DNA from: Catellatospora tritici
GTDB taxonomy: Bacteria; Actinomycetota; Actinomycetes; Mycobacteriales; Micromonosporaceae
Length of the DNA: 64,000 nucleotides
Direction: 5' to 3'
Assembly: GCF_019083965.1 (NCBI RefSeq)
Contig: NZ_JAHRCY010000002.1
Location: 310,001 to 374,000, forward strand
Below the pieces are notes generated by a model. It was not told the origin of the DNA. It made no database searches and was given only the letters and a program-made list of their open reading frames with translations. Below are positions 8,808 through 43,592 of this stretch, in pieces. Each line of letters begins with the position of its first letter. The stretch's first letter is position 1. Made by a program: the position numbers and the translations under genes.

Positions 8808-8857
8808 TGGGATCTCCTGTGCGGTGGGGTTCGAGCCGGAGCGGACGCGGACGGCGG

Positions 8858-9214
8858 TCAGCGGTCCTGGATGAGGCCGAGGACGTTGCCGTCCGGGTCG
8901 GTGATCGTGGCCACCAGACGGCCGCCGCCGACGTCACGCACGGACTCCTTCACGGTGGCGCCCGCCGCCGTCACCTCGGCCAACTTCGCCTCGATGTCGG
9001 GCACGTGCCAGTAGGCCACCGGTGCGGTCATCGCCTGCGGTCCGCCGCCGGGCACCAGCCCGATCTGCTGGCCCTCGACCTCGAAGCCGACGTAGTAGGA
9101 CCCGTCGGTCTGCGGTGCCACGCCGAGCAGCGCGGCGTACACGGCCTTGGCCGCGGCCAGATCGGACACCGGGTGCAGCACGGTCTTGATGCCCTGGGTG
9201 GCAGAGCCGGTCAT
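8858..9214 (-). CDS. VOC family protein (glyoxalase/bleomycin-resistance fold)
   Basis: The ATG at 9214 follows AAGGAGTGACC and gives a 118-residue single-domain VOC protein. It reads MTGSATQGIKTVLHPVSDL, then YYVGFEVEGQQIGLVPGG, then VATITDPDGNVLGLIQ, the usual beta-alpha-beta-beta-beta pattern with the terminal D-P-D-G-N. Longer in-frame extensions are antisense to the regulator at 9362 and are rejected. It may bind or modify a small molecule; the substrate is unknown. It is divergently placed to the LuxR-type regulator, which might control it. Confidence 0.88.
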   Translation of the reverse strand: MTGSATQGIKTVLHPVSDLAAAKAVYAALLGVAPQTDGSYYVGFEVEGQQIGLVPGGGPQAMTAPVAYWHVPDIEAKLAEVTAAGATVKESVRDVGGGRLVATITDPDGNVLGLIQDR

Positions 9215-13857: not shown

Positions 13858-14145
13858 GCAGTGGCAATGCCGCCGATTCAGAGAATCCCAGGCAACGCCG
13901 CGACCATTACGACGCCGCGGACCCCTCCGAGCACGCCGAAGGCTCTTCGCGCAACCTTTCGGCGGGGCAATCCATGGTCGACGGACCGACGGCGCGCTCC
14001 GGCCGCCCGCCGCACATACGATCACGCCTCGAACATCCGACCGCGAGCATGTAACGACCACGCCGGAAGCGCCATTGCGCGCCCGAATCCGGCGTGGCTT
14101 CTGGTGTACGGCGACAGGGATACAACCCCGATCGCCGATCGAAGG

Positions 14146-14163
14146 TGTCCCGCCAGCGGGACA
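14146..14163. promoter_or_regulatory. Candidate LmbU-type operator, site 1
   Basis: TGTCCCGCCAGCGGGACA is an 18-base palindrome except at the central pair. It lies 94 bases before the start of the thymidylate-kinase-like gene that opens the first biosynthetic operon. It matches the other three sites in the island and carries a near match to the CGCCGGCG core known for LmbU regulators. Confidence 0.6.
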
Positions 14164-14256
14164 GCGCGCCCTCGGGTAAGGCGTCGCATCCCTACCCTTC
14201 CGCCGGGAAAAGTCAGAACATGGTCACGGTTGCCGAATGGAAAGGAGAACTTCATC

Positions 14257-14937
14257 GTGGGTCTCCGCGACAGGGCGCCGTACGACGGCGCACTCATTGC
14301 CATCTGTGGACTCGATGGCTCGGGAAAGACCACACAGGTGAAGCTCCTTGCGGAGAGTCTCAGCGCCGTGGCCAGTGTGTCCGTGTTCCGCCCGGTCACC
14401 GACGCGTTCCGCAATGACCCGACCGTGACCGCTTACCTGGACGGCACCATGCCCGCCGACCAGCGGCACGACATGGTCGCGGAACTCGCGCTGCTCGCCG
14501 CCGCGGACGGCTTCAGGCAGATGCGGACCGCGATTCTGCCCCGACTGCAGGCCGGCGACGTCGTGCTCTGCGACCGCTACATCTACAGCGCTTTTGCCCG
14601 GACCCTTGCTCGCGGTTTCGAGGACCAGGACTGGCTCAGCCGGTTGTACCGGTACATGCCGGTACCAGACTTGACCCTCTTCCTCGACATACCGCCGGAG
14701 AAGGCGTTGGAACGCATTCGCTCCCGCGGCTCGGCGCCTCGGTGGGAGGAGGCGGATCCGGCCAAGACCGCGGCCGCCCGAGCGGCGTTCCTCGAGCAGC
14801 CGTGGGGGCGGCAGGACACGTACCGGATCATCGACGCCGAGCGGTCGGTGGACGAGCTCGCCGCCGCCGTGCGACAGGTCGTCACCGAGACACTGCGGCT
14901 CCCGATCGACGCGGGGACAGCCGCCTCGCCGAGGTGA
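14257..14937 (+). CDS. Thymidylate kinase-like nucleotide kinase
   Basis: The GTG at 14257 follows AAAGGAGAAC; upstream in-frame codons have no ribosome binding site. The 226-residue product has the P-loop CGLDGSGKTTQ (residues about 18-28), a CDRYIYSAFA segment with the DRY/DRF-type motif of dTMP kinases, and DLTLFLDIPPEKALERIRSRG followed by a lid-like region. It should phosphorylate dTMP or a related nucleotide with ATP in the cytosol. It begins a plus-strand run of biosynthetic genes, so a pathway-specific or resistance copy is more likely than the housekeeping tmk. Confidence 0.8.
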   Translation: MGLRDRAPYDGALIAICGLDGSGKTTQVKLLAESLSAVASVSVFRPVTDAFRNDPTVTAYLDGTMPADQRHDMVAELALLAAADGFRQMRTAILPRLQAGDVVLCDRYIYSAFARTLARGFEDQDWLSRLYRYMPVPDLTLFLDIPPEKALERIRSRGSAPRWEEADPAKTAAARAAFLEQPWGRQDTYRIIDAERSVDELAAAVRQVVTETLRLPIDAGTAASPR

Positions 14938-20678: not shown

Positions 20679-21698
20679 TCAGGCGGCCAGGAGCGCGCCG
20701 AAAGCGTCGGCCGTGGCGGGATCGTCGAGCGCACCCACCTCGCGGAAGTAGCGGATGGTCGACTGCGCCGCCTCGGCCGAGCGAGCCAGCACCTGCTGCC
20801 GGGGGTATGACTCGACGAGCACCGCCTCGATCTGCTCGGTGGTCAGCCCGATGCCGTCGAGCGCCTGCCCGACCGCGCGGTAGTCCGGTTCCAGGAAGGC
20901 CAGGATGATCGACGGCAGCCACGGGCCGACCGACCGCCGCTCCGCCGGGGTCAGGGCGTGCCAGACCACGCCCAGCACGTCCCGGAAGTAGGCATGGTGC
21001 CGCCCCTCGTCCATGGCGTGGTCGGCCACCGTGTCGCGGACGGCCGCGGGCAGCCGCTGATCGTGGGGGATGCGTGCCAGCAGTGACGACACGAGCGTCT
21101 CGCTGACCACGGCGAACAGCAGCCGCCCGAGCGCCGGCACGTTGGTGTGCAACCGATCGGCGATGCCCGTGAGCCGGTCCACGAACTGCGGTGCCGGCAG
21201 GAGCGGCAGGGTCTCGCCAGTCTGCGCCTCCACCTGGCGACTCAGGTCGTCGGAGAACTGGGCGTGCCACGCCTCGTCGGTCACGATGCGGTAGGCGTCC
21301 TGGCGCGCGGCGGCCGAGAGGAAGAAACCGGCCCGGCCGCGGGCGAGCTCCGTGGCCACCGGGATCACGGCGAGACTCTCGAGCTCGGCGGTGAAGTGAA
21401 GGTAGTTGTAGAGCGACCGGATCAGCAGGCGTCGCCGCGCATCCGTCCCCGCTGCCCGGACCAGGGGATGATCGAAGCAGGGCACCAGCTCCGGCGGGAA
21501 GTACAGCTGGTCGTCAGCGGCGCCGTCCGCGACTACCCGCCGGGGACGGCTGCGCACGGACGCCGAGGTGTCCCAGTTCGTGAAGCGGCTGCGGTAACCG
21601 GCGGCCATCCGCTCGTCGAGCGCCCCGGCCAGCCCCGAAGCGGTCTGCGCCAGCCGCGCCGACTCCTGGACGCCCTGGCTGAGGAAACTGGCTGTCAT
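20679..21698 (-). CDS. AurF-like diiron N-oxygenase (second copy)
   Basis: The 339-residue product is a second PF11583-type oxygenase, longer than the one at 15052 and only distantly similar to it. Candidate diiron ligands are in YNYLHFTAELESL, TDEAWHAQFSDDL (D-E-x-x-H), VVSETLVSSLL and DHAMDEGRHHAYF (D-E-x-x-H). Its start overlaps the stop of the asparagine synthetase gene by 4 bases, so the two are translationally coupled. It therefore belongs to the minus-strand peptide/asparagine-synthetase operon and may N-oxidise that product rather than the one built on the ACP. Confidence 0.83.
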   Translation of the reverse strand: MTASFLSQGVQESARLAQTASGLAGALDERMAAGYRSRFTNWDTSASVRSRPRRVVADGAADDQLYFPPELVPCFDHPLVRAAGTDARRRLLIRSLYNYLHFTAELESLAVIPVATELARGRAGFFLSAAARQDAYRIVTDEAWHAQFSDDLSRQVEAQTGETLPLLPAPQFVDRLTGIADRLHTNVPALGRLLFAVVSETLVSSLLARIPHDQRLPAAVRDTVADHAMDEGRHHAYFRDVLGVVWHALTPAERRSVGPWLPSIILAFLEPDYRAVGQALDGIGLTTEQIEAVLVESYPRQQVLARSAEAAQSTIRYFREVGALDDPATADAFGALLAA

Positions 21699-23896
21699 GT
21701 GCCCGGCTCCGCATCGGTGATCACAACGAGCAGCCCTGACTCCAGCGACTCCCCGACCTCGTCGGCGATCTGCGCGTACTCGGCCTGCGCACTGTCCAGC
21801 AGGGCACGCAGCGTACGGGTTCCGTCGATCAGCGCCACGACCCGGCGCCAGGCAGCCGCGTCACCGTCCACAACGAACTCGATCGAGCCGTCGCGCAGCA
21901 GGTAGCAGATGTCGGGATCGTGCGGGTCGTTGAGCACCATGACCCCGTCGGCCCAGCCGAGCACGGCCGTGTCGGAGGGCTGCACCCAGCCGAGGACCCG
22001 CCGTGCCAGGTCCCGGCCTTCCTCGCCGTCATGGACGGGCGCGGGCCAGGCACTGAGGGGAGCCGGCGCGGGAATGTCGATGATCGGGGGCGGCAGTTGG
22101 GCCAGCATCTCTTCGAGCAGGCCCAGATTCACCAGGCGGACGACCAGGTCGACCGCCTCGAGCCGCTCGCCGCGGCCGAAGCCGTCGATCAGGGCGTGCA
22201 CGGCCTTGTCGTCGAGGTGCTCCTTGGCCCCCGGCATGCTGAGGGCGGACCGGACCAGGGTCCGCTGCTCCTGCTCGAGCAGGCCCACGAGCATCCGGCG
22301 GGTATGGCGGACCCCGTTGCCGTGCAGGAAGGGCACCTTCTCCCGCCAGGCCACGTGCTGCGGCAGCACGTCGCGCAGGCCGTCGCGCAGGATCCGCTTG
22401 TCCCACAGCAGGCTCGCCCGCCGGTGTGCGGGGACGGCTGCCACGTACTCGACCAGCCGGTGATCGAGGAACGGCACCCGCGCCTCCACGCCGCTGCCCG
22501 CGGCGGAACGGTCCTCGTGCCAGACGTTGTACTGGTAGATCTTGCGGTACTGGCCGCGGATGTACCGCAGGTAGACGTCGGTGTCGGTGGTGTCGGCGGC
22601 CGCACCGCGCAGCACGGGCGCGCCCACCGCCGCGGTCCACTCGGATCCGGTCACATCGCTTCGCGCCATACCCCGGCGCAGCATGGTGTCCAGGTGGCCC
22701 GCGAAGGACGACCAGTCGCCACCACCGGCGATGTCGGTGGAGTATCCGCCATTGAACTCGTCACTGGCCGCGCCGAGCAGCATCCCCTTGAGCTGGGGCC
22801 GAGTCTGCCGCGCGTACCGGTAGAGCTCGTGCTTGAAGTAGGCCTCGGCCCCCGTCATCGGGTTCTCCATGAGCCACAGGAGCCGGCGCCACTCGTCCGG
22901 CGACGGGACATGGTCACGGGGCACGTACATCTGGTGGTGCGCGAGTCCGAGCCGCCGGGCGATCTGATCGGCGTGGTAGGCGTCGCCGCTCTCGATCGTG
23001 GCCGGGCTCAGGATCGTGAAGGTGTGCAGGTCGGTGGTGCGCACGGCCAGCGCCGCGACGGCGGCCGAGTCCACACCGCCACTGAGGAAGAGCCCGAGTT
23101 CCGCGTCGGCGTGGGCGCAGTCGGCCACCGATGCGGCGAGCAGCCGCGCGTACTCGGCGATGATCTCTTCGTCCGAGGCCTCCCCGATCTGCGCGTCGCC
23201 GGGAAAGTCCCAGTACCGGTGGACGGATCTGGCACCGGAGTGCAGGTCGATCTCGACGACGGTGCCGGGTTCGACGTACTCGATGCCGGAGAACCAGCTG
23301 GTGGGCGCCGTATCGGTGATCAGCGGGGCGCCCTGCAGTGCCGTGCTGGTCAGCGCGGCCTGCCAGTCCACCATGCGGGGGGTCGCCGGGTCCTGGAACA
23401 GCGCCTTGATCTCCGAGCCGAAGACGACGCGGTCGGCGTTCTGGTGGAAGTACAACGGCTTGATGCCGAAGCGGTCACGGGCCAGGATGAGGCGGTTCGC
23501 GGCGACGTCGTACAGCACGATCGCGAACATGCCGTTGACGGCTCGCAGGAAGTCCCGGCCGTGCTCCTGGTACAGGTAGCCGAGGACCTCGCAGTCGGAC
23601 CCGTTCGGCCGGGCGGGGAATTTCGGCAGCCCGCGGGCGAGCTCTGCGTGGTTGTAGACCTCGCCGTTGGCGATCACGACAACCTGCCGGTCCTCGGTCC
23701 AGATGGGCTGGTCCCCGGCGTCCGGGGCGATCAGCGCCAGCCGGCTGAAGCAGAAACCCACCTGGGGACCCACCCGCAGGGCGACTCGCTCGTCGGGGCC
23801 GCGATGGGCGACCGCGACGGCCAGGGCCTGGAGCCGGAGTGCGTCGCGGTCGGTCAGACCACGTCCGAGTGCTGCGATACCAGCTATGCCACACAT
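21695..23896 (-). CDS. Asparagine synthetase (glutamine-hydrolysing) with C-terminal PqqD/RRE-like domain
   Basis: ATG at 23896 is preferred over 23908 because it places Cys directly after Met (MCGIAGIA), which the glutaminase needs, and follows AGGAAG. Of 733 residues, about 2-210 form the class II amidotransferase and about 235-600 the synthetase, with the ATP pyrophosphatase motif SGGVDS at 272-277. Residues about 645-733 are extra: YLLRDGSIEFVVDG, LIDGTRTLRALL and ESGLLVV match the PqqD/RiPP-recognition-element pattern. Lasso cyclases are AsnB-type enzymes, but they use a separate RRE. The upstream 22-residue peptide is the proposed substrate. It would make an amide from a carboxylate using ATP and glutamine. 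Confidence 0.88.
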   Translation of the reverse strand: MCGIAGIAALGRGLTDRDALRLQALAVAVAHRGPDERVALRVGPQVGFCFSRLALIAPDAGDQPIWTEDRQVVVIANGEVYNHAELARGLPKFPARPNGSDCEVLGYLYQEHGRDFLRAVNGMFAIVLYDVAANRLILARDRFGIKPLYFHQNADRVVFGSEIKALFQDPATPRMVDWQAALTSTALQGAPLITDTAPTSWFSGIEYVEPGTVVEIDLHSGARSVHRYWDFPGDAQIGEASDEEIIAEYARLLAASVADCAHADAELGLFLSGGVDSAAVAALAVRTTDLHTFTILSPATIESGDAYHADQIARRLGLAHHQMYVPRDHVPSPDEWRRLLWLMENPMTGAEAYFKHELYRYARQTRPQLKGMLLGAASDEFNGGYSTDIAGGGDWSSFAGHLDTMLRRGMARSDVTGSEWTAAVGAPVLRGAAADTTDTDVYLRYIRGQYRKIYQYNVWHEDRSAAGSGVEARVPFLDHRLVEYVAAVPAHRRASLLWDKRILRDGLRDVLPQHVAWREKVPFLHGNGVRHTRRMLVGLLEQEQRTLVRSALSMPGAKEHLDDKAVHALIDGFGRGERLEAVDLVVRLVNLGLLEEMLAQLPPPIIDIPAPAPLSAWPAPVHDGEEGRDLARRVLGWVQPSDTAVLGWADGVMVLNDPHDPDICYLLRDGSIEFVVDGDAAAWRRVVALIDGTRTLRALLDSAQAEYAQIADEVGESLESGLLVVITDAEPGT

Positions 23897-23922
23897 GGGC
23901 TTCCTCATCTCTGCCGTCGGGA

Positions 23923-23960
23923 GAGCCGGTGCGTCCGGCCAGGGCCGGGCGCACCGGCTC
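23923..23960. terminator. Stable hairpin between the peptide gene and the asparagine synthetase gene
   Basis: Arms 23923-23940 and 23943-23960 pair over 18 positions with one G-T wobble and a 2-base nominal loop (arms GAGCCGGTGCGTCCGGCC and GGCCGGGCGCACCGGCTC). No T-run follows, so termination may be partial. Placed after the short peptide gene and before its enzyme gene, it fits the read-through attenuators that keep RiPP precursor mRNA in excess. Confidence 0.7.
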
Positions 23961-23965
23961 GTCGA

Positions 23966-24034
23966 TCACGCCTCGGAGCGGAGCACCGTCGAGGTGCTGA
24001 CCGGGCGAACCTTCGGAGAGCTGTACTTCTTCAT
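23966..24034 (-). CDS. Candidate RiPP precursor or leader-only peptide, 22 residues
   Basis: The ATG at 24034 follows GGGGGAGGTGAATGGA, a near-ideal ribosome binding site at 8 bases spacing. The peptide begins MKKYSSPKVRPVS, continues with a Ser/Thr/Val stretch and ends LRSEA. Y4-x-x-P7-x-V9 resembles the YxxPxL recognition motif of lasso leaders, which binds PqqD/RRE domains; the next gene's enzyme carries such a domain. It is shorter than known lasso precursors, has no obvious core glycine, and no B2 transglutaminase-type protease gene is nearby. It could be a scaffold peptide modified at its C-terminus, or a regulatory leader peptide for asnB. Confidence 0.5.
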   Translation of the reverse strand: MKKYSSPKVRPVSTSTVLRSEA

Positions 24035-24200: not shown

Positions 24201-25199
24201 TCAGCTCTCGCTCGGTTCCTGCGCGGATCGAAGCAGCAGCCTGCCCCCGTCGGACAGGCTGTAGAGCACCTTGTTGGTGCGGCGGGTGCGCACGGCCATG
24301 CCGCAACCGACCAGGCGGCCGAGGTGCTCCGAGACGGTGCTCGGTGCGAGCGCGAGCTCCCGGGCGATCGCGGCCGTCGTACGTGGTGACACGAGCAGCC
24401 GCAGAATGTCGGCACGGGCCCTGCCCAGCAGCAGCTCGAGCCGATCCGGCGTGCCGCTGCGCCGACGGTCCATCCGGATCGCCAGGTCACCGGCCCCCCG
24501 CGCCTGATAGCCGATCGCCAGCCCGCCGGCCCCGTCGCAGGACGTGATCACCCGGTCGCGCAGGAACACCACCGGCACCAACGTGACCGACGCCGGTTCC
24601 CGTTCGCAGACCGGTGCGCCGGTCACCAGCGACAGCGACGGCCGGTTCCACCGAACCCGGGTATGGAGGTTGCCGAGGACGTCGTCCACACCGGCGACGG
24701 CCAGCCGCTCCGCCCGCGCCGCCAGGTCCTCTTTGAGGATCTCCCACACCGCGCCCCAGTCGGGACGCAGGATCGCCTCGATGTACTCGTCCAGCAGATC
24801 GGCGAGTTCGGCCAGGGCGCGCGCCGGTGCGGATTCGAACGACCGGAACGCCGGGGGCACTTCCAGGGAATGGTGGTGGCGCAGCCGCGCGCTGATCTCC
24901 TCAGGCGGCTGGGCCCGGAACTCGGCGCAGGCGTCGCGCAGGCTGGTCACGCGGGTCGGCGGAGACGGCAGCAGGAAGGCGGGCGGCAGACCGTCCGGCC
25001 ACCCGGCCGCCCATCGGACCAGCCGGGCGCCTCGGCCGGAGGCCACCGCCACCGACGCCTCGCGAGCCCAGAGGCGATAGGGGAACTGGGGCGTGCCGTG
25101 ATGGGCGAGCAGTGCCGCGCTGGCCAGGACCTCCCAGAGTGCGTGCGGCACGATCCGCAGCCTGGACAGCGCTTTCGCGGTCAGCGGGATGGGATCCAC
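24201..25199 (-). CDS. ArsR-type winged-helix transcriptional regulator
   Basis: GTG at 25199 is chosen because AGGAGGG lies 7 bases before it; an ATG at 25238 is weaker. Of 332 residues, the first 250 form a long N-terminal domain found in actinomycete ArsR-family regulators, and about 250-320 form the winged helix: ELLLGRARADILRLLVSPRTTAAIARELALAPSTVSEHLGRLVGCGMAVRTRRTNKVLYSLS. No metal-binding Cys cluster is seen, so it probably senses a small molecule or DNA state. It is upstream of, and codirectional with, the peptide/asparagine-synthetase operon and divergent from the MFS exporter, which it may also control. Confidence 0.85.
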   Translation of the reverse strand: MDPIPLTAKALSRLRIVPHALWEVLASAALLAHHGTPQFPYRLWAREASVAVASGRGARLVRWAAGWPDGLPPAFLLPSPPTRVTSLRDACAEFRAQPPEEISARLRHHHSLEVPPAFRSFESAPARALAELADLLDEYIEAILRPDWGAVWEILKEDLAARAERLAVAGVDDVLGNLHTRVRWNRPSLSLVTGAPVCEREPASVTLVPVVFLRDRVITSCDGAGGLAIGYQARGAGDLAIRMDRRRSGTPDRLELLLGRARADILRLLVSPRTTAAIARELALAPSTVSEHLGRLVGCGMAVRTRRTNKVLYSLSDGGRLLLRSAQEPSES

Positions 25200-25307
25200 G
25201 GCCGAGCCCTCCTCGCGAGAGAAGCGGCGTTTCATCATGCGGTGGAGGACGACCAGCCGCCCGGTCGACGGGCATGGCGGCCCATCAGGGCCGATGCACG
25301 GGGCAGC

Positions 25308-25634: not shown

Positions 25635-26906
25635 ATGAGCGTCGCAGCGACCACCGCCCCGGCGTCGGACGTCCGGCCCGCATCCGCATTCTGGCAGTAC
25701 TGGACGGCCTCGGTGATCAGCCAGATGGGCTCGGCTGTCACCAAGATCGCACTGCCCGTGCTCGCCCTCGTCGCGCTGAACGCCTCCAATTTCGAGGTCA
25801 GCCTCATCACAGTCGCCTCGTACGCCGCCATCATCCTGATCGGCCTGCCCGCCGGTGTGATCGCCGATCGCCTGCCGCTGCGCGCCCTGCAGGTGACGAT
25901 GGACCTGTCCCGGGCGGCACTCGTGGCGAGCATCGCGGTGGCGTGGTGGCTCGGCGCGCTCACGCTCGCACACGTCATCGCGGTCGCCTTCATCGTCGGG
26001 CTCGCCTCGAACATCGCCTTCGTCGCCAACGCCTCCTTCCTGCCCGCGGTCGTGCCCAAGGACCAGCTGACCCTGCGAAACGGCCAGCTGTCGGCGACGT
26101 TGTCGATCACCCAGCTCATCGGCCCCGCTTTCGGCGGCCTGCTCGTCCAGGCGGCCGGTGCCGCGGTCAGCACGATCGTCGACGCCGTCAGCTACGTGAC
26201 CTCCGCGGTCCTGCTCGGCCGGCTTCGCGGCACCGACCAGCGACGACCGGCCCGGCCGCAGGGCTCCTTCGTCTCCCAGATCGCCGTGGGGCTGCGGTTC
26301 GTGATGCGGCACCCGATCATCAGGCCGTCCATCCTCGCCGCGAGCGCCGTGAACTTCTCCAACGGCGCCATCCTGGCGGCGACGCCGCCCTTCGTCCTGC
26401 GGACCCTGCACCTGCCGGCCTCGATGGTGGGTGTGGTCATGTCGCTCGAGGCGGTGGGCGTCTTCGTGGCCGCCCTCTTCACCGCCCGCCTGTCGGCACG
26501 GTTCGGCGACGCCCGAGTCATCCTGTGGGCCACGGCAGCAGGTGGTGCCATCTCCGTACTGATGCCGCTGGCGTTCGGCGGCGTGGTCTCCGTCATCGTG
26601 CTCTACGGAGTGGGCAGCGCCGGGCTGGCGGCCGGGGTGACCCTCCTGAGCGTCATCACCCGCACCCACCGCCAGGTCGTTTCGCCGCCGGAGGTCCTGA
26701 GCCGGGTGATGGCGTCGGTGCGCTTCATCACCTGGGGCGCGACCCCGCTCGGCGCCCTGGCGGCCGGCGTCGCCGCCACCGTGTGGGGACCGCGCGAAGG
26801 CCTGGTGTGCGGTGTCGTCGGCGCACTTCTCGCGCCGGTCGCGCTGCTCTTCAGCCAGGTGTCCAAGGTGCGGACGCTGCTGGATGCGGAGCCCGCCGCG
26901 CACTGA
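25635..26906 (+). CDS. MFS exporter
   Basis: The 423-residue protein has about 12 hydrophobic helices and the MFS_3/EntS-like layout. The motif-A-like loop between helices 2 and 3 reads GLPAGVIADRLPLRALQ, and the central loop is RLRGTDQRRPARPQGSF. This subfamily exports siderophores, macrolides and other secondary metabolites by proton antiport across the cytoplasmic membrane. It is the only obvious small-molecule exporter in the island, so it is the likely exit or immunity route for the product. It is divergent from the ArsR-type regulator. Confidence 0.9.
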   Translation: MSVAATTAPASDVRPASAFWQYWTASVISQMGSAVTKIALPVLALVALNASNFEVSLITVASYAAIILIGLPAGVIADRLPLRALQVTMDLSRAALVASIAVAWWLGALTLAHVIAVAFIVGLASNIAFVANASFLPAVVPKDQLTLRNGQLSATLSITQLIGPAFGGLLVQAAGAAVSTIVDAVSYVTSAVLLGRLRGTDQRRPARPQGSFVSQIAVGLRFVMRHPIIRPSILAASAVNFSNGAILAATPPFVLRTLHLPASMVGVVMSLEAVGVFVAALFTARLSARFGDARVILWATAAGGAISVLMPLAFGGVVSVIVLYGVGSAGLAAGVTLLSVITRTHRQVVSPPEVLSRVMASVRFITWGATPLGALAAGVAATVWGPREGLVCGVVGALLAPVALLFSQVSKVRTLLDAEPAAH

Positions 26907-29116: not shown

Positions 29117-29974
29117 TCATGCCGCTGCGGGTGAGAGCATGGGCGGCATCGTGATGCCATGTGCCCGCTCCCAGGCGGCGATGCCGTCGGGAGTCGGACG
29201 CTCGCTGCCTGCCTCGGCATGCACCAGGTGGACGCGGACGAGCGGCGGCCCCGCCGCGACCGCGGCACTGAGACCGGAGTGGTCGTGCACGGCGAAGAAG
29301 TTCGGCGACGAGTACGCGACCTCGATCGGTGCATCCACTTCGGAAGACCGCCGCGCGGACGGCGGCAGCGCCGTCGGATAGATCCGGCGCGGATCGAGGA
29401 AGCATGCCGGTCCCGAAGCGTCGGACCGGTCCTCGTCCAGCGCTGCCATGATCAGGTCGGCGATCTGCTCGGGCGTGGCCCGCGTGCTGTCACACACGAG
29501 GTCGTAGTTGCGCAGCCGGGTCTTGTCCACGTTGTACCGGTCGAGGAACCGCACCCGCTCGATCTCGCTTCGCATCGCCAGGTGGTTGCGCGCCTCGTCC
29601 AGGGAGGTGTAGCTCTCGACCGTGTCCGCGGGCCGCCCGAGCACGCGGCGGGCGGCGACCGTGGGTTCGGTGAGCAGGTGAACCTTCAGCGCGTCCGCGA
29701 AGAAGTGCCAGGCCAGGCGGCTGTCCACGACGAGCTGCTCGCCTGACGCGGCGATGTCGCGTTGGAGCTGGTCCACGTAGTGATCGGTCTTGTCGTCAAG
29801 CTGCGCGTGCAGGTTGATCTGCATCGCGTTCATGCCGAGATCGGCGGCCAGTTTCCGATACAGGTCACCCACACTGACTCGCCGGATCCCCAGGCGCTCC
29901 GCCAGGATGATCGATACAGTGCTCTTGCCGCTTCCCAGATCCCCATTGAGGACTACGGTCCTTTTACGTGCCAT
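29117..29974 (-). CDS. Cytidylate-kinase-like P-loop kinase with extra C-terminal domain
   Basis: The 285-residue protein begins [21 protein letters not shown], a P-loop of the (d)CMP/AMP kinase kind, followed by GIRRVSVGDLYRKLAADLG, an LVVDSRLAWHFF segment and a lid with several Arg residues (RSEIERVRFLDRY). Residues 1-180 therefore look like a cytidylate kinase-2 type enzyme. About 100 further residues (FLDPRRIYPTALPPS onward) form an unrecognised domain. It overlaps the upstream guanylate-kinase-like gene by 22 bases. A nucleotide or nucleoside-like intermediate is the likely substrate. Confidence 0.75.
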   Translation of the reverse strand: MARKRTVVLNGDLGSGKSTVSIILAERLGIRRVSVGDLYRKLAADLGMNAMQINLHAQLDDKTDHYVDQLQRDIAASGEQLVVDSRLAWHFFADALKVHLLTEPTVAARRVLGRPADTVESYTSLDEARNHLAMRSEIERVRFLDRYNVDKTRLRNYDLVCDSTRATPEQIADLIMAALDEDRSDASGPACFLDPRRIYPTALPPSARRSSEVDAPIEVAYSSPNFFAVHDHSGLSAAVAAGPPLVRVHLVHAEAGSERPTPDGIAAWERAHGITMPPMLSPAAA

Positions 29975-30588
29975 GTCTCACCATAGCGTCCGGTTGCGGC
30001 GACTCCCCCGCCGGGAACGGCGGTGCGCCCGGTCGGTGGGCCGGCGCCTGCTCCCAGCGCCGCGAGCAGCCGTTCCATCGCCTCGGTGACCGATCCGTCG
30101 TTCGGCACGAGCGCGAGCGGCGGCCTGGCGAACCGCCGATCCTCCTGCCGCTGGCGCTGGTCCTGCGCATCCGCCGGACGTCCGTCCGCGGCCAGCCGCT
30201 CATCCAGCACCTCATCGGCGGCGTCGACGAATGCCCCCGCCCATCCCGCTCCCGACGGACCGGCCAGCAGGCCGTATGCCTGCCGGGGCGCGACCGTCAG
30301 CAGGGGACGCCAACCCGCGCGCAGGACCGACTCGATGTCCGACACGGCGATCCCGTACTGGAAGGCCCCATAGCTGCCCACCAGGACCAACTGCCCGTCG
30401 GCCTGCAGCCGTGCGAAGTCGCCCGCCGAACCGAACCGGTAGGTCCCCGGCAGGTCGTCTGCCCGCGGAGGCCGGGTGGTGAAGGAGGGGACGCGCCTCA
30501 TCGCGGTGCCTGACTCGCGTAGCAGCAGCTCGGCCAGCGTGGTCTTGCCGGCGCCACGGGTACCGGTGATGACAAGGCCAAGGGTCAT
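29953..30588 (-). CDS. Guanylate-kinase-like P-loop protein
   Basis: ATG at 30588 opens a 211-residue protein: [22 protein letters not shown] (P-loop), then [20 protein letters not shown], the FTTRxxRxxE-like guanylate-binding segment of GMP kinases, [23 protein letters not shown], and a ribose/base-binding helix [17 protein letters not shown]. The C-terminal 70 residues are Arg/Gly-rich and poorly conserved. It should phosphorylate a purine-like nucleotide or be a degenerate relative. It forms an operon with the cytidylate-kinase-like gene and is divergent from the uracil-DNA glycosylase fusion gene. Confidence 0.75.
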
Positions 30589-30699
30589 GGATCCGAGTAC
30601 ACGCGGCGGACGCGATCCGGAGCAAGCGATCACGAGCGGATCGACGGCCGTGGCCCCGGAAGGCGGACGCAGCCCGCGGCACCTTCGTATGATCTTCGC

Positions 30700-32118
30700 A
30701 TGCCGACTGGCACGACACGGTTGACGTGCGTAAATATCCGGTCCAGCGAGGACTACGCCGCGTATCGCGATGACCCGACGGCCTGCCTGCACATCCTCGA
30801 CGGCGACCACCCCGTCGTGGACGGCCGCGCGTTCGTCGACTCCATCCTCTGGACCGCACGGGTCGGCGCCGTTCTCGGCTCCACCCGGGTGCAGTCGATA
30901 CGCGGGTCGGCGACGGTGGATGTGGTGGGGGAACACGCCCGGATCGGGATCGTGCACGACTCGGCCAGGATCGGCTACGTACGCGATCATGCCGTGATCG
31001 ATGCCGTCCGCGACTGCGCCCGCGTGGGATCCGTCCTGGGCGCCGCCCGCGTGCTCGAGCTGGCGGACTGGGCGAGCCTCGGACGGCTGGGCGGGACGGC
31101 GCGGGTGGAACTCGTGCGAGGATTCGCCCGGCTCGGTGAGGTCGGCGAGCAGGCCGGGATCGGCCGGGTGGAAGGCATGGCCGCCCTCGCGCGGGTCACC
31201 GGCTCGGCCGTGGTCGACCGGCTGGCCGAGCGCGCCGTCGCGCACCACGTCGAGGGCTCGGCCCGAGTGGCCGCCTGCGGCATGGCGGTGGTCCACGCCC
31301 ACGGCGGCACGGTCACCGCGGCCGAGTCGGCCACGGTGCTGCGCTATGGCGAAGCGGCCGAGGCCGGCCGGGTCACCGACACGACAGCGCCCGCAACCGG
31401 CGGCGAGGGCGCGGAGCCGGGGTCCGCGACCACGGCTCCTGCGCTGTCGGAGCTGCGGCAGCAGCGTGTCCACCAGTCCTGGCACGCCCCGCTGGCACCC
31501 TGCCTGGACCAGCTCGCCGCCATGATGGCGTTCCTGCGCGACGAGGTCGGCAGCGGCCATGCCTGCCAGCCCGCGCAGGACGCGGTGCTGCGCGCCTTTC
31601 GGCAGCCGTTCGAAGACGTGCGGGTGGTGATCGTCGGACAGGACCCCTATCCGGCACCCGGCCACGCGGTCGGGCTGAGCTTCTCGGTCGCCCCGGAGGT
31701 CACCCGGCTGCCGGGCAGCCTGCGCAACATCTTCCACGAGTATTCCGACGATCTCGGGCTGCCCGTACCCGGGTCCGGTGACCTGACCGCGTGGACCCGA
31801 CGCGGCGTGCTGCTGCTCAATCGCGTGCTGACGGTCCGCGAGGGCATGCCCGCGTCGCATCGCGGGAAGGGCTGGGAGGCCGTGACCGACGCGGTGATCC
31901 GCGCCCTCGCGGCCCGGCCCGCGCCGCTGGTGGCGATCCTGTGGGGTACGGATGCTCGAGCACTCACCGAACTGCTCGGCGATACGCCAGTGGTGGCGTC
32001 GCCGCACCCCAGTGCGATGTCCGCGGCGAGCGGCTTCTTCGGCTCGCGCCCGTTCAGTACGGCGAACCGCCTGCTCGCCGAGCAGGGCGGGCAACCGGTC
32101 GACTGGCGATTGCCATGA
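30700..32118 (+). CDS. Uracil-DNA glycosylase fused to an N-terminal 9-residue tandem-repeat domain
   Basis: The C-terminal half of this 472-residue protein is a family 1 uracil-DNA glycosylase: GQDPYP (313-318, catalytic Asp315), LLLNRVLTV (Asn374) and HPSAMS (436-441, His436 and the minor-groove loop). It removes uracil from DNA. Residues about 53-220 are about 15 tandem 9-residue units of the form A-R-V-x-x-V-x-G-x ([27 protein letters not shown]), predicting a beta-solenoid. Normal Ung proteins are about 225 residues with no such extension. The gene sits among nucleotide kinases and a dCTP deaminase, so protection from uracil or a uracil analogue is plausible. Confidence 0.85.
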
Positions 32119-32161
32119 CGTCTCCTGGCTGCCCGCCCTGCTCGGCGACGGCGGTGCGGGA

Positions 32162-33133
32162 TCAGTCGCTGAGCCCCAGTTCCCGCAGACCCTTGTTGAC
32201 GAACGCCCCCCACGGCTCACCGAGCATGCGGACCTGCTCTTCCTCGGTGATGGTCCACTGTTCTCCGCTGTGGTCCGGGTGCACGAACACCACCGACGAC
32301 CAGCGTCGTTCGCTCATCGCCATCGGCGAGCGGTGCACCCGGTGCGTCGACGGGCGCACCCGGCGCCCCGAGGCCTCCGACAGCATGCGCCCGATGTTGC
32401 AGAGCAGAACGTCGGTGCCCCAGATGATCGGCTCCACCCACGTGCCGTCATTGAGGATGTACTGCAGCCCGCCCTCGGAGGCCGGGAACTGCACGCCGAG
32501 CATCTGGATCCCGGAGTGCTCGTGGGCCAGGATCTCTCGGCGCTGCGAATCCTGGTAGTGGATGACCCGCAGGATGCTGGAGTGCCGCGACAGCCCCAGT
32601 TCCGGTGCCTGTCCGGGCAGGATCTCGCGGACCACGTCACCGAGCGACGCCGCGACCCGAATGCCTAGTTCGAAGATGAACCGGGATTGCTCGGCCAGCG
32701 CCGGAAACGCCTCGAGCAGCGCCGCCGATCCTGCCGGATGGTTGTCGAGCATGGCGCCGCTCACGTGCAGGAATTCCTTGGGGTCGGCGACCCCGTTGGC
32801 CAGGCGCGGCACCTCAGAACCAGGGCGGAAGAAACCGTGGTTGCCGCCCGCCGAAGCCTGCGGAACCCGGTCGACGGCGAATTCGTACAGGCTCGGCGAA
32901 GTCGACGCCAGCGCAGCATCGAAAGCGCCATACAGCTCGGTTACCCGATCGCCGATCCCGGGCACCTCAAGCGCCATGAATCCCCAGGTGGCCAGCTGTT
33001 CGCGAAACTCCTCGATGTTGCGAATAGCGTCATCTTCGACAGATTCGACGTGCAATTGCGGCACCTTCCCGGCAAGGGGAAGGAGTTCAACTTCGGACAA
33101 CCCGGAACACCACCAATCATCGACGTTTAGCAC
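32162..33133 (-). CDS. Isopenicillin-N-synthase-like Fe(II)/2-oxoglutarate oxygenase with altered metal site
   Basis: The start is uncertain; GTG at 33133 gives 323 residues and TTG at 33100 (reading LSEVELLPLAGK) gives 312. The jelly-roll signature is IPNS-like, with NHGFFRPGSEVPR, SRHSSILRVIHYQ, ILAHEHSGIQMLGVQ, NIGRMLSEASGRRVRPSTHRV and RRWSSVVFV. The usual iron motif H-x-D is H204-E-H206, so the Asp ligand appears replaced by His, while His264 and the R-x-S 2-oxoglutarate site remain. Changed ligand sets occur in halogenases and other altered reactivities. Substrate unknown; it is convergent with the glycosylase gene. Confidence 0.8.
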   Translation of the reverse strand: MLNVDDWWCSGLSEVELLPLAGKVPQLHVESVEDDAIRNIEEFREQLATWGFMALEVPGIGDRVTELYGAFDAALASTSPSLYEFAVDRVPQASAGGNHGFFRPGSEVPRLANGVADPKEFLHVSGAMLDNHPAGSAALLEAFPALAEQSRFIFELGIRVAASLGDVVREILPGQAPELGLSRHSSILRVIHYQDSQRREILAHEHSGIQMLGVQFPASEGGLQYILNDGTWVEPIIWGTDVLLCNIGRMLSEASGRRVRPSTHRVHRSPMAMSERRWSSVVFVHPDHSGEQWTITEEEQVRMLGEPWGAFVNKGLRELGLSD

Positions 33134-33252
33134 TGCCGAAAAACGGGTCAGCGCCGCTTCGGAATATGATCCATCCAATCTGGGCCAGGCGCCATGAAAG
33201 CATTGATGAAGGCGCCGGCAAAGGCACTGAATGGGAGACGGCCGAATCGGGG

Positions 33253-33924
33253 CTACTGACGCTCGGCCGCGGTCAGCAGGACGAAGGTGGCCCACCGGTC
33301 CACGGTCAGGCCCCGCTTCATGGCCGCTTCCTCACAACGCCGCAACTCCGAAGAGGTCAGCTGCAGTGACAGTTTGTCAGCGATCAGATCCCGTCCCCGG
33401 GTGCCGACGGAGGTGTCCCCCGGCCGCGAGACCTCGTAACGGGCCTCGGTCGCGCCGTCGGCGAGCCGCTCGCGACGGCTGGCCCGCACCTCGTTGCGCA
33501 ACTGGTTGCGCGACCAGCCGTGTTCCTCGGCCTTGCGCAGCCAGTAGGTCTGCTCCGGCGGCTCGAGCGCCGCGACCTCGGCATGGTGGCCGAAGCTGAG
33601 GCTGTCCCGCCGGCGGGACATGTCCAGGCGCCTGGCCACCCAGGTGTAGTTGCGCAGCGTCTGGTAGCTCAGCGAGGTTCTTTTGACGGCTTCCTCGTAC
33701 CGGTCCTGGAACCGGGCCTCCCCGTAGGCGAGCCAGTCGGCGATCCACCAACTGGCCGAATCCGCATAGGCCAGCAGTCGCTTTCCGATTCCCTCCCAGG
33801 CCATGAGACTGAGGTCGTCGTGGAAGACGATGCCGCATCTCTCCACACGCATGGCCCGACCGGCCTGCCCTGTCAGCCCGACATCGGTGAGGATGTGTGT
33901 GCTTCGCGTCAAAGCTTGTGTCAT
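33253..33924 (-). CDS. LmbU/HrmB/NovE-family transcriptional activator
   Basis: The 223-residue product (ATG at 33924 after GAGAGGACC) matches the LmbU family: WEGIGKRLLAYADSASWWIADWLAYGEARF, RTSLSYQTLRNYTWVARRLDMSRRRDSLSFGHHAEVAAL and GWSRNQLRNEVRASR. Family members HrmB, NovE and LmbU activate hormaomycin, novobiocin and lincomycin clusters, and LmbU binds palindromes with a CGCCGGCG core. Four such palindromes are found in this island, one within this gene. It is therefore the best candidate for the pathway-specific activator. A longer start at 33984 is possible. Confidence 0.88.
   Translation of the reverse strand: MTQALTRSTHILTDVGLTGQAGRAMRVERCGIVFHDDLSLMAWEGIGKRLLAYADSASWWIADWLAYGEARFQDRYEEAVKRTSLSYQTLRNYTWVARRLDMSRRRDSLSFGHHAEVAALEPPEQTYWLRKAEEHGWSRNQLRNEVRASRRERLADGATEARYEVSRPGDTSVGTRGRDLIADKLSLQLTSSELRRCEEAAMKRGLTVDRWATFVLLTAAERQ
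33603..33620. promoter_or_regulatory. Candidate LmbU-type operator, site 3 (inside the lmbU-like gene)
   Basis: TGTCCCGCCGGCGGGACA is a perfect 18-base palindrome. It lies within the coding sequence where it encodes the conserved SRRRD segment, so codon constraint could partly explain it. It may still act in autoregulation. Confidence 0.4.
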
Positions 33925-34450
33925 TTCCCGTGGTCCTCTCGTTAATCGCGAAGACCGGCGCCACATGATCCACCAAAATGCCAAAATAGAAAGTGATCAC
34001 ATGTGCCCCCGTGGGCGCCAATGCTAGTGGCAGCTCTGTACCCGCGCACTCCCTTCACCGCCCGGGGCGCCGATGAGCGCGGAAAACGCTGCGACGGAAC
34101 CACAGCGGACTGACCGTTTACAAAGCTTTTGTCTATTAGGTACTTGTACTCCGTAACAGAGGGTAAACGCGGGCAATTAGGATAGTGACCGCGCGCGGGC
34201 GCGGTTGGCCGTCTCGTCGGCTCGCGCCGCGGCGGACGGCGGGCGGATCGCCGGCCGGGACGAGCGCTCGCCCGCCGCCCGGCGGGGTCTGCCGATGGGC
34301 GTCGCGCACCACCTGACAGGCTCGCCGGGCCCTTTGTAGGCGGTCGGTGGATGTGTTTGGCTTCGGTACTGGCATGCGGCGGGACGCCCGGCAATGAGGT
34401 GAATCCCCAGAAATCACGGACCGGATCCTGTCGGAAGGAGGAAGCAGCAG
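33925..34450. other. Divergent promoter region of 526 bases
   Basis: No gene is supported here. The stretch separates the LmbU-type activator from the dikinase gene. An unusually AT-rich segment (about 34110-34190) contains inverted CGTTTAC (34115-34121) and GTAAACG (34163-34169) arms and is the probable promoter area. The dikinase gene's ribosome binding site GGAAGGAGG lies at its right end. Confidence 0.6.
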
Positions 34451-36400
34451 ATGGCCGATACGACCGGCGGACAGAGATTTCCGTCCCTGCACGAAGGCTG
34501 GGACGCGGCGGCGGTGGGAAACAAATTCGCCTCACTCGCGCATGCCAGTCGCCTCTTTTCGGTGCCCGCCGCGATCGTCGTGCCCGTCGGCGAGTTCCGG
34601 CAGGCCGTGCCGCAGGCCGTCCGCGCCGGGATTCAGTCGGTCATGAACGATCTCGAGGCGACGGTCGGCGCCTACTTCCACGAATCCGTCCAGCGCATAG
34701 CGGAAATCGCCGCGGACATCCGGCTGCCGGACGCGGCCCGGCGCCAGCTCGCCGAGCGCGTCGATGCGGTGATCGGCCGATCGTCGGTCGTGGCCGTGCG
34801 GTCTTCCGGCCTGGCCGAGGACGGACCCGCGAACAGCCTCGCGGGCGCCTATCAGAGCTTCCTCGACGTCCATGGCGCCGAAGCGGTCGCCGACGCGGTA
34901 GAGCGCTGCTGGCGATCGTTCTACGGACCCACCGCGGTCGCGGCGCGGATCCGGGCCGGCGACTTCACCGCCGAACCGGCCCTGGCCGTCATCATCCAGC
35001 AGTTCGTCGCGGCCACGATGTCCGGCGTGGCGTTCAGCGGTCTCGACGCCGACGCGGGCGCAGCTGACATCACGGTCGAGTTCGTGGAGGGAACGGCCGA
35101 GGACCTCGTTGGCGGAGCCCGCAGCGCGCAGACCGTGAGCGATGTGTCACAGGAAGTGGTGCTCGGTCAGGTCAGGCGGATCGCCGCAGCATTGCGCGTC
35201 GAGCGCGGTCATGAGATCGACCTGGAATGGGCCGCGGACCGACACGGCACGATCCACGTTCTTCAGGTGCGCCCGCTGACAGCGCGTCGCTTCGACTCCC
35301 CCGACGAGATCTGGCTGCGGCGGCTGTACTTCGCACACCCGCCGGCCAACGCCCAGCTGGGCGACGTCGCCGCCGTCTACGCCGGGTTCGAGGCCAAGCG
35401 AGGGCCGGCCAACCGGCTGGCCGCAGCGCACGGGGTCGACGTCACCACCGGGTGGCTCATGGGCTTCACCACCCGGGCCCTACATCGCGATCACGACGCC
35501 GAAGCGGCCGAGCGGTGCCTGGACACTGGGCGCAGCCAGGAGTGCCTGCTCGACCTCGGCCCCGCGCTACGCCAGCTGGTGATTCCGAAGACGCAGCTCA
35601 TCCCGCGCCTGCGGGACATCCATCGGGCCGACCGCCACGGCGACCAGGCCGGCGCCGCCGTCGTCCGGGACTACCTGCGGGGCGAGCTCGGCTTCATCTC
35701 TCACATCAGTGGTGACCGCGTCGTGGTGGAGTACGCGCCCGAGGGCCTGCTGGCGCTCAACCGCGGCACCGCCGGAGCCGAGCGGCTCAGTACCGATCTC
35801 AGCGGATCCCTGATCAACGCACCCGATTCGGCACAGCCCCTGCTCGCGCATCTCGGCCGCATCGCCACCTTCACACAGGCGATGAGTGACGAGTTCGGCC
35901 CGGCCGCGGTGGAGTGGGTCCTCGACGGCGGAGTGCCGGTCTTCCTCGACTATTCGCTCGGCCTGGGCACCCGGCACACCGCGTACAGCGGCACGGTGAT
36001 CTCCGCGGGCACAGCCCGGGGTCCGGTGCTCACCGTCCCGGACGAGGAACTGATAACCCGCGTGTCCGTGGCCGCGGCGATCAGCATCGGGGGCGAGGCA
36101 CACGCCGCGACCGCGGGGTATCTGGCCGACCTGCTCGACCGGGTGCGCCAGTGCGCACAGCCGCCGATCATCCTGGCGAGCAGGCCGTACGCCGCGCTGT
36201 CGATGCTGATCGGCTCCGTGGCGGGCTTCGCGTTCGAACGGGGCTCGGTCCTGTCGCACCTGGCCATTCTGCTGCGGGAGTCGGGAACCCCGGCGGTGTA
36301 TGGCATCGCGGCCGGCGCCGTGCCCGACGGCACGCACGCGGTGATCAGCGCGGGCGCGTTCAGCGCCAGCCCGGCGCCGCCGATGCACAGCGACCGCTAG
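34451..36400 (+). CDS. PEP-synthase/rifampin-phosphotransferase-like dikinase
   Basis: The 649-residue protein has an N-terminal ATP-grasp-like pyruvate-phosphate-dikinase domain (VVAVRSSGLAEDGPANSLAGAYQSFLDV, then LAVIIQQFVAATMSGVAFS and IHVLQVRPLTARRF, residues about 20-280), a unique central domain (about 290-530) and a C-terminal swivelling phosphohistidine domain (SVLSHLAILLRESGTPAVYG, catalytic His603). The PEP-binding TIM barrel is absent, as in rifampin phosphotransferase. Such enzymes split ATP to AMP and phosphate and phosphorylate a bound substrate through the His. The substrate here is unknown; a nucleoside or pathway intermediate is plausible. The gene heads a three-gene operon. 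Confidence 0.82.
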   Translation: MADTTGGQRFPSLHEGWDAAAVGNKFASLAHASRLFSVPAAIVVPVGEFRQAVPQAVRAGIQSVMNDLEATVGAYFHESVQRIAEIAADIRLPDAARRQLAERVDAVIGRSSVVAVRSSGLAEDGPANSLAGAYQSFLDVHGAEAVADAVERCWRSFYGPTAVAARIRAGDFTAEPALAVIIQQFVAATMSGVAFSGLDADAGAADITVEFVEGTAEDLVGGARSAQTVSDVSQEVVLGQVRRIAAALRVERGHEIDLEWAADRHGTIHVLQVRPLTARRFDSPDEIWLRRLYFAHPPANAQLGDVAAVYAGFEAKRGPANRLAAAHGVDVTTGWLMGFTTRALHRDHDAEAAERCLDTGRSQECLLDLGPALRQLVIPKTQLIPRLRDIHRADRHGDQAGAAVVRDYLRGELGFISHISGDRVVVEYAPEGLLALNRGTAGAERLSTDLSGSLINAPDSAQPLLAHLGRIATFTQAMSDEFGPAAVEWVLDGGVPVFLDYSLGLGTRHTAYSGTVISAGTARGPVLTVPDEELITRVSVAAAISIGGEAHAATAGYLADLLDRVRQCAQPPIILASRPYAALSMLIGSVAGFAFERGSVLSHLAILLRESGTPAVYGIAAGAVPDGTHAVISAGAFSASPAPPMHSDR

Positions 36401-36520
36401 CCCCGCCCGATGCCGCCCGCAGGCGTCGGTGCGGTGGCACCGGCACCGCCCGAATCCACACGACCGCACCACCGGCCGGGACCTCGCCCGGACAAGCGAG
36501 CCGCCCAGAGAGGTAGGAAG

Positions 36521-37081
36521 TTGAACATCGAGCCAGCTGGTGAGCCGACTCGCATCTGCCTGTACGGCCCGACGGGATCCGGGAAGACGACGATCGCACG
36601 TCATCTCGTCCGGCGGTACGACGGCGAGCTCATCAAGATCGCCGAGCCGTTGCACCGGTTCCAGCAGATGTTCTATGACATGCTGCAGAAGCCGGTGACC
36701 GGCCAGGACGGCGAGTTGCTGCAGTTCCTCGCGGACAAGATCGAACGCGAGCAGCCGGGCTGGCTCGGGCGCAGCGCGACCGCGCGGGTCCACGCGTCCG
36801 GTCGCACGGTCGTCGTCAACGACGACTGCCGCCGCAACAGCTATGCGGCGCTGGACCAGGCCGGGTTCGTCTTCGTCCGCGTGCTGACGTCGCCGGAGCG
36901 CATCGCGCAGCGCGCCCGGCCGGACCATACGCCCGTAAACACCGCCCACGCTGTCGAGGCGGGGTTCGACACGTTCCGGGCGGACCACACGATCACCAAC
37001 GACGGCACGCTCGCGCAGGCCCTGGTGCAGGCCGAGGAAATTGTGGAACGTCTGCTCGAGAGGCAGAGGGTGGGACGCTGA
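36521..37081 (+). CDS. P-loop nucleotide-type kinase
   Basis: TTG at 36521 follows AGAGAGGTAGGAAG; no ATG is as well placed. The 186-residue product begins LNIEPAGEPTRICLYGPTGSGKTTIARHL with a P-loop, then LIKIAEPLHRFQQMFYD and VVVNDDCRRNSY (an Asp pair like the DRx motif), VFVRVLTSPERIAQRARPDH (lid arginines) and a final DHTITNDGTLAQALVQAEEI typical of deoxynucleoside-monophosphate kinases and dephospho-CoA kinases. It shares TGATG with the dCTP deaminase gene, which suggests a deoxynucleotide substrate. Confidence 0.75.
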   Translation: MNIEPAGEPTRICLYGPTGSGKTTIARHLVRRYDGELIKIAEPLHRFQQMFYDMLQKPVTGQDGELLQFLADKIEREQPGWLGRSATARVHASGRTVVVNDDCRRNSYAALDQAGFVFVRVLTSPERIAQRARPDHTPVNTAHAVEAGFDTFRADHTITNDGTLAQALVQAEEIVERLLERQRVGR

Positions 37082-39319: not shown

Positions 39320-39427
39320 GCTCGGTAACCTCCGCACCTGGGACCTACGGCCGCGCACTGCGGCACGTGGGACGCATGACGATTCTGGATGTGCTCCATG
39401 CCGGGTTCTGCTCGGCGGCTGACGTCG

Positions 39428-39703: not shown

Positions 39704-39704
39704 G

Positions 39705-43527: not shown

Positions 43528-43592
43528 GCTGTCGTACCCACTTCCTGAATCAGTTCGATGATGATCGAAGTCGAGATGAGCCCCACGGTTGC

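Follow-up and report, generated by a model that had tools for sequence, protein, structure and literature searches.

A stretch of 64,000 nucleotides from Catellatospora tritici (assembly GCF_019083965.1, contig NZ_JAHRCY010000002.1, positions 310,001 to 374,000; here called the window) carries on its minus strand a 69-base gene for a 22-residue peptide, a gene for an enzyme of the asparagine synthetase (AsnB) family and a gene for an AurF-like diiron oxygenase that overlaps the AsnB gene by 4 bases. The peptide is MKKYSSPKVRPVSTSTVLRSEA, and the stretch immediately ahead of its open reading frame (ORF) is gggggaggtgaatgga. The 9.59-Mb source genome has a second such locus (L009), with the peptide MRKYQKPSAKPVSAAAVMKMMS, likewise of 22 residues, an AsnB 39% identical to that of the window and an ordered, compact operon that runs nucleotidyltransferase-PqqD-major facilitator superfamily (MFS)-AurF-peptide-AsnB. 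These genes are read here as a locus for a ribosomally synthesized and post-translationally modified peptide (RiPP). An AsnB that bears its own RiPP recognition element (RRE) probably puts hydroxylamine on the C-terminal carboxylate of the peptide, which would make it a peptide hydroxamic acid.

Relatives beyond this genome were found in 1 of 61, 4 of 397, 3 of 394 and 0 of 396 genomes of four overlapping genome sets. A contig search with AsnB alone as the query found no relative, and phage records gave no match at E 1e-60. An alignment-driven contig scan found 74 loci, numbered here with an L, and the 54 actinobacterial ones are taken as the family. The 20 from other phyla (L071, L072, L074, L076-L079, L081-L083, L085-L092, L094, and L096) stand outside the 54-locus counts. 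A 60-locus set consists of the 54 loci, the window, L008, L009, L014 and two plasmids, and a 64-locus set includes L071, L072, L074, L082, L087, and L091. The duplicates L015, L016, L017, L021, and L022 are not counted twice, and L020, which covers AsnB residues 1-524 only, is left out. L036 is the Micromonospora marina locus.

It is clear that the peptide gene is real, as the first-pass annotation of the window had proposed. That annotation had also asked whether homologous loci carry the short ORF, and at least one exact 22-codon ORF of the form M[KRQT].Y..P....[VI] is present in 53 of the 60 loci. When ORFs of 16-31 codons are scanned on both strands of this set (1,200,015 bases), 59 of the 60 that fit the pattern are 22 codons long and the remaining one is 21. 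The family comprises 54 distinct 22-mers. Its recurrence is far above chance. Of 56 upstream regions, each 300 bases long, 44 have an ATG-initiated ORF of 20-24 codons beginning M[KRQ].Y..P, against 1 in 22,400 dinucleotide shuffles of the upstream DNA. Of the 49 upstream copies on the same strand, 48 start with ATG, and a loose pattern finds a ribosome-binding-like stretch for 48. L023 and L084 encode three 22-mers each, and L051 and L052 two each.

Where there is no exact match, the peptide takes another form or is not seen. L026 has a 47-residue version (8818-8961) in which Y..P occurs twice; the second copy keeps the usual register, with its Tyr still 19 residues from the C-terminus. In L027 the peptide is a 20-mer and this distance is 17. 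L031 has an opposite-strand 22-mer with Tyr and Pro not in their usual places and L075 a 21-mer with a GGH end. L065, L070, and L093 gave no precursor peptide with the patterns tried.

The codon pattern, another check named by the first-pass annotation, is weakly informative. DNA differences between pairs amount to about 0.4 per site inside the ORF versus about 0.7 in the flanks. In 32 close pairs the proportion of nonsynonymous differences (pN) is 0.093 and that of synonymous differences (pS) 0.234, and it looks as if selection on the coding sequence is apparent in these pairs only. Over all pairs pN is 0.391 and pS 0.422, a ratio of 0.93, and variation by codon position gives no coding signature, the third position being no more variable than the first. 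The signature is weak because base composition is extreme. The 22-mer ORFs are almost certainly a precursor family.

The enzyme encoded next is recognised by Pfam and NCBIfam as a glutamine-hydrolysing asparagine synthase up to residue 580. The glutaminase residues, whose roles we take to be those of E. coli AsnB by analogy, and the SGGxDS motif do not vary among the 69 AsnBs, and therefore a glutamine-type nitrogen donor is likely. The C-terminal remainder matches no Pfam or NCBIfam model at cut-off. One clue to its nature is the predicted fold. AlphaFold models residues 606-733, aligned with 67 relatives, at a mean predicted local distance difference test score (pLDDT) of 87.6, and the full-length protein at 87.4. 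In the full-length model residues 645-727 run b-b-b-b-a-a-a-b, with strands at 645-648, 652-656, 664-668, 671-676, and 723-727 and helices at 678-689, 696-703, and 707-719. This is an RRE-like winged-helix fold, which the first-pass annotation had made a condition of its reading, in the extension that it had drawn from residue 645. In Foldseek the extension is matched best by cyanobactin heterocyclases, TigE and ThcOx; McbBCD and MccB rank lower, and GdmN is also present.

A second clue comes from profiles. Aligned one-to-one with 25 free-standing PqqD proteins that these loci encode, the extension gives E 8e-8 and a probability of 94.5. Against PqqD structures its profile is weak (E 0.02-0.04) and ranks under several transcription-regulator matches. 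Pfam makes no PqqD call in the window's extension. For 68 extensions Pfam finds winged-helix families, with a PaaA-like N-terminal domain in 4 members, and PqqD is absent among the 25 families listed. On these models, the end of AsnB is very probably a diverged RRE. The RRE is seen here as presence only, namely as a fold on AsnB and as PqqD proteins; binding of the leader is predicted.

Among solved structures the AsnB is closest to the hydroxyamidotransferase TsnB9, both by sequence (E 5e-39; E. coli AsnB, E 2e-34) and by fold. TsnB9 also served to locate the trichostatin loci (97-98% identity). The gene order there is TsnB7-TsnB8-TsnB9 (PMC13418202). TsnB7 was taken to be the 313-residue AurF-like protein two genes on from TsnB9, an assignment by position and PMC5719088.

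Over 303 residues the window oxygenase shares 39-40% identity with TsnB7 (E 5e-58 and 3e-56), versus E 1e-8 to AurF and E 3e-4 to 5hyg, and all 41 locus oxygenases are 31-40% identical to TsnB7. Residues E107, E142, H145, E200, H227, E231, and H234, presumably the ligands of the two irons, are kept in 41 of 41 proteins (39 from the loci and two TsnB7). L084 and L095 were left out of this count, and L034, L065, L084, and L095 out of the tree, because their gene starts looked wrong. In the maximum-likelihood tree TsnB7 falls in a group with the window oxygenase and L093 (84/96), and the aryl-amine enzymes sit on a separate long branch; long branches leave exact places unsure. An aryl-amine N-oxygenase was thus the second-best reading of the AurF-like gene, rejected on these E values and the tree. 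The grouping with the amide oxygenase TsnB7, and not with aryl-amine AurF, points to a hydroxamate.

Two variants were seen among the oxygenases. That of L031 (11216-12436) is longer at its N-terminus, and the added part may be an RRE: the PqqD profile gives E 0.063 there, and Pfam calls no PqqD domain. Thirteen of the 41, the window's not among them, start MCG..G[LM]F.GC.A...CP, with three Cys, like a glutamine amidotransferase N-terminus (L008:16879-17925, L009:8603-9619, L014, L049, L054, L056-L058, L061, L062, L066, L070, and L093).

How might these parts work together? TsnB7 makes glutamyl hydroxamate for trichostatin, acting with the helper TsnB6 (PMC5719088). The pair of an AurF-like and an AsnB-like protein is an established route to the hydroxamates of trichostatin and benzohydroxamic acid, and a proposed one for actinonin and matlystatin (PMC13418202; PMC5719088). 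Here, too, a TsnB7-like amide oxygenase adjoins an AsnB-like transferase, and the parallel leads to the reading of a C-terminal peptide hydroxamic acid. The precursor family, its fixed length, the RRE and the enzyme relationships are supported by computation, and we infer the C-terminal chemistry, the hydroxamate product, trimming and activity. The 22-residue peptide would be the RiPP precursor. Its N-terminal part, M-K-K-Y-x-x-P-x-x-x-x-V, would be gripped by a free-standing PqqD protein and the winged-helix domain of AsnB. The oxygenase would convert glutamine to glutamyl gamma-hydroxamate, from which the glutaminase domain of AsnB would free hydroxylamine. The synthetase domain would adenylate the C-terminal carboxylate of the peptide, and hydroxylamine joined to this activated end would give the hydroxamic acid. 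A peptidase may then trim the N-terminal part, and the short peptide hydroxamate would leave through an exporter, perhaps to inhibit a metalloenzyme as actinonin does.

The site of modification is the part of this scheme on which the peptides themselves bear. Asp and Glu are absent from 28 of the 54 distinct peptides, which makes the C-terminus the sole carboxylate that AsnB could activate in those; the window peptide has one Glu. A fixed length also makes sense if the enzyme binds the N-terminal part through its RRE and from there reaches the peptide end. It is therefore likely that the C-terminal carboxylate is modified. The first-pass annotation had offered the C-terminal residue with a "perhaps", and its RiPP-like class with a recognition domain on AsnB itself is supported, the chemistry being our own proposal.

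Several observations weigh against the proposed scheme. The oxygenase, found in 40 of the 54 loci, was not found in the other 14, L045 being a contig of 3.5 kb. A tblastn search with TsnB6 gave no match at E 1e-3 in any of the 64 loci, and no leader peptidase is common to the loci. The AsnB is only 26-28% identical to TsnB9. TsnB9 matches at E <= 1e-120 occur in 233 of 392 Streptomyces genomes (mostly 52-57% identical among the matches listed), and because its relatives are so common in Streptomyces the likeness is weak on its own. The Foldseek matches of the extension, GdmN among them, have a probability near 1 and a best E of 0.0089, none being below 0.001. Lastly, the added part of the L031 oxygenase, if an RRE, would favour an oxygenase that acts directly on the peptide.

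This last point suits the reverse order, in which AsnB makes a C-terminal amide from glutamine ammonia and the oxygenase then N-hydroxylates the amide on the peptide. The authors of PMC5719088 favoured amide first for actinonin and matlystatin, where a TsnB6 helper is lacking too, and the 64 loci gave no TsnB6 match. However, the best-matched characterised pair, TsnB7/TsnB9, uses hydroxylamine transfer, and the reverse order is rather unlikely. By either order the product would be a hydroxamate, which is fairly likely.

What if the AsnB product is simply a C-terminal amide or nitrile, and the oxygenase has a different site or substrate? TsrC and ScdTA amidate the C-terminus and PesC makes nitriles there (PMC13060819), and the 14 loci that show no oxygenase are in keeping with this. 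However, most loci have an oxygenase, its gene overlaps that of AsnB in the window, and its nearest characterised relative is an amide oxygenase. Such an outcome is improbable.

Little probability can be given to the peptide being a carrier, with AsnB ligating a small amine to its C-terminus for modification there and later cleavage, as in pearlin-type pathways. The precursor is very short with a variable end, and the window has elsewhere an amino acid:carrier-protein ligase-like gene and free-standing condensation domains. Yet the residues for releasing ammonia or hydroxylamine are invariant, the company of LanM implies that the peptide's own residues are modified, and no PEARL-type gene was recognised among annotated neighbours, for which no dedicated search was made.

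A lasso-type or other macrolactam, joining a side-chain carboxylate to an amine, is very unlikely and was rejected. The Y-x-x-P motif resembles a lasso leader and the enzyme is of the AsnB family, but the genome has no PF13471 peptidase, the lasso cyclase model NF033535 scores 173 bits against a cut-off of 525, the glutaminase residues are intact, and Asp/Glu is missing from the 28 peptides noted above. The locus had already been set apart from standard lasso loci in the first-pass annotation, and the absent leader peptidase agrees with that. It is scarcely credible that the short ORF, instead of encoding a precursor, acts as a regulatory leader for AsnB: in 44 of the 49 cases on the same strand it precedes AsnB by a median of 92 bases, but it is 1.4-6.3 kb off in the remaining five and on the opposite strand in L031, three copies occur in each of L023 and L084, and it keeps company with PqqD, RRE and LanM.

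The reading of a RiPP hydroxamate locus draws in further genes of the window (Table 1). The free-standing PqqD protein and the nucleotidyltransferase-like protein belong to the system. The PqqD profile matches 43 of the 60 loci and the window (39431-39832, E 1.1e-27; Pfam PqqD, 3.5e-14); since its 25 source proteins come from these loci, though not from the window, matches in the loci are partly by construction. The nucleotidyltransferase-like family is present in 41 of the 54 loci and twice strongly in the window, where its minus-strand member has no Pfam NTP_transf_2 match at E 0.05. Parts of ATP-binding cassette transporters recur in 14 of the 64 loci, and CPBP-type membrane peptidases occur in 5 loci, a median of 8 bases from AsnB.

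Table 1. Features of the window assigned to, or found near, the putative RiPP locus.
Feature	Position	Strand	Basis or remark
22-residue precursor peptide MKKYSSPKVRPVSTSTVLRSEA	23966-24034 (with stop)	minus	ORF, 54-member family, shuffle control
AsnB-like enzyme, 733 residues, glutaminase residues intact	21695-23896 (with stop)	minus	Pfam, NCBIfam, structure likeness to TsnB9
RRE-like winged-helix domain of AsnB (predicted), residues 645-733	21698-21964	minus	AlphaFold, Foldseek, PqqD profile alignment
TsnB7-like diiron oxygenase (PF11583), putative maker of glutamyl hydroxamate	20679-21698	minus	Pfam, TsnB7 identity, tree
Free-standing PqqD (RRE) protein	39428-39808	minus	family profile, Pfam PqqD; true start maybe Met ~39703
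Nucleotidyltransferase-like protein	38543-39358	minus	family profile E 8e-94
Second nucleotidyltransferase-like family member	54043-54822	plus	profile E 7.7e-101, Pfam NTP_transf_2 7e-5; locus membership uncertain
MFS exporter	25635-26906	plus	family in 28/64 loci
ArsR-type winged-helix regulator	24201-25238	minus	family in 16/64 loci
Thymidylate-kinase-like protein, kinase domain from residue ~146	13861-14937	plus	family in 10/64 loci

LanM-like lanthipeptide synthetases cluster in 5 of the 64 loci, three of which were Pfam-tested. A LanM adjoining the operon was Pfam-tested in L023, L025, L053, and L120, and those of L032 and L068 were assigned by clustering only. LanM beside the operon counts for the RiPP reading. 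It also adjoins the operon on a Streptomyces scopuliridis plasmid, one of two examined out of three Streptomyces plasmids matched. This plasmid and that of S. europaeiscabiei list asnB, diiron oxygenase, MFS, PqqD, nucleotidyltransferase and helix-turn-helix genes. The 22-mer is on both plasmids, yet not in the PLSDB gene tables, which are incomplete.

The loci vary. Eight have Arg-ending peptides (L038, L040, L041, L055, L060, L064, L069, and L080), and in these no oxygenase was seen. Seven of the eight have a biotin-carboxylase-like ATP-grasp gene (Pfam-tested in L060), and L060 additionally has a TauD-type dioxygenase and methyltransferases. A separate though related branch has GGH/GAH-ending peptides of 21-22 residues, in 5 copies in Bacillus xiamenensis, 2 in Anoxybacillus mongoliensis and 2 in Sorangium cellulosum, with one 21-mer of this type in Streptantibioticus silvisoli (L082:5063-5591, L087:7223-7411, L091:6568-6798, and L075:5250-5315). 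All four of these loci have PqqD and a shared methyltransferase gene near AsnB. A JmjC-domain protein was Pfam-tested in Anoxybacillus, and a like-sized Bacillus gene is similar by eye. The stable core is thus AsnB, RRE and the fixed-length precursor, with the oxygenase one tailoring choice among several. Loci without it would by the same logic yield a C-terminal amide.

Perhaps the nucleotidyltransferase has a part in the chemistry too. In this more doubtful extension, an AsnB with its own RRE and a fixed-length precursor would define a new RiPP class, and the companion nucleotidyltransferase would O-nucleotidylate the C-terminal hydroxamic acid. Tailoring would then differ by clade, an equally doubtful part of the proposal, through the TsnB7-type oxygenase, LanM, JmjC dioxygenase with methyltransferase, or TauD with ATP-grasp. 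If nucleotidylated, the product would be a stable mimic of a peptidyl- or aminoacyl-adenylate. It would be a ribosomal counterpart of microcin C, whose pathway uses wholly different enzymes.

Other parts of the window have genes of their own. Between 15052 and 20652 lie a second AurF-like protein (15% identical to TsnB7), amino acid:carrier-protein ligase-like, nitronate monooxygenase-like and methyltransferase-like proteins and a free-standing condensation domain; they seem to form a carrier-protein pathway of their own. Positions 29117-37692 hold cytidylate-, guanylate- and deoxynucleotide-kinase-like genes, a uracil-DNA-glycosylase-family protein and a dCTP-deaminase-like protein. Positions 42554-46932 hold a PolyA-polymerase head-domain protein, a condensation domain, a PhyH dioxygenase and a nucleotidyltransferase-like protein whose C-terminus is RRE-like by eye only.

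The arrangement recurs in dozens of soil bacteria and appears to represent a gene-encoded family of peptide natural products not described before. No description of it was found in the open-access articles searched; a report elsewhere is possible. The precursor is short enough to be missed by gene calling, a possible reason why the family went unnoticed. C-terminal hydroxamic acids bind metals strongly and serve as inhibitor warheads. No ribosomal hydroxamate was found by title in the open-access articles searched, and the hydroxamates of the cited articles are polyketide-derived, metalloproteinase-inhibitor or simple aromatic products (PMC13418202; PMC5719088). If our proposal is true, a RiPP route would make peptide hydroxamates programmable in DNA. 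The family may also account for some of the roughly 300 uncharacterised asparagine synthetase-like RiPP candidates (PMC13060819).

How does the locus compare with known systems? It shares with lasso peptides an RRE, an AsnB-family enzyme and a leader motif of the Y-x-x-P type, by which lasso leaders are recognised. However, lasso loci have a PF13471 leader peptidase, a long core and an obligatory Asp/Glu, none of which is found here. With the nitrilobacillins and PesC, and with the amidases TsrC and ScdTA, it shares an asparagine synthetase-like RiPP enzyme, the C-terminus as target and glutamine nitrogen (PMC13060819). Nitrilobacillin precursors end R(V/T)DN, whereas none of the 54 peptides here ends DN; the available text of PMC13060819 mentions no RRE, and here an AurF-type oxygenase is present. 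The TsnB6/7/9 cassette of trichostatin A, like SaAmOx-AS/SaAmOx/SaHAT of benzohydroxamic acid, has the same combination of an AurF-superfamily amide oxygenase and an AsnB-family transferase. Its substrate is a small carboxylic acid and it has the TsnB6 helper, whereas here no TsnB6 match is found and an RRE-bearing AsnB is joined with a ribosomal peptide. Finally, actinonin and matlystatin (ActI/ActJ and MatA/MatC) share the AurF-like and AsnB-like pair proposed for hydroxamate formation (PMC5719088). These two are not ribosomal and have no precursor peptide, whereas here the precursor is encoded.

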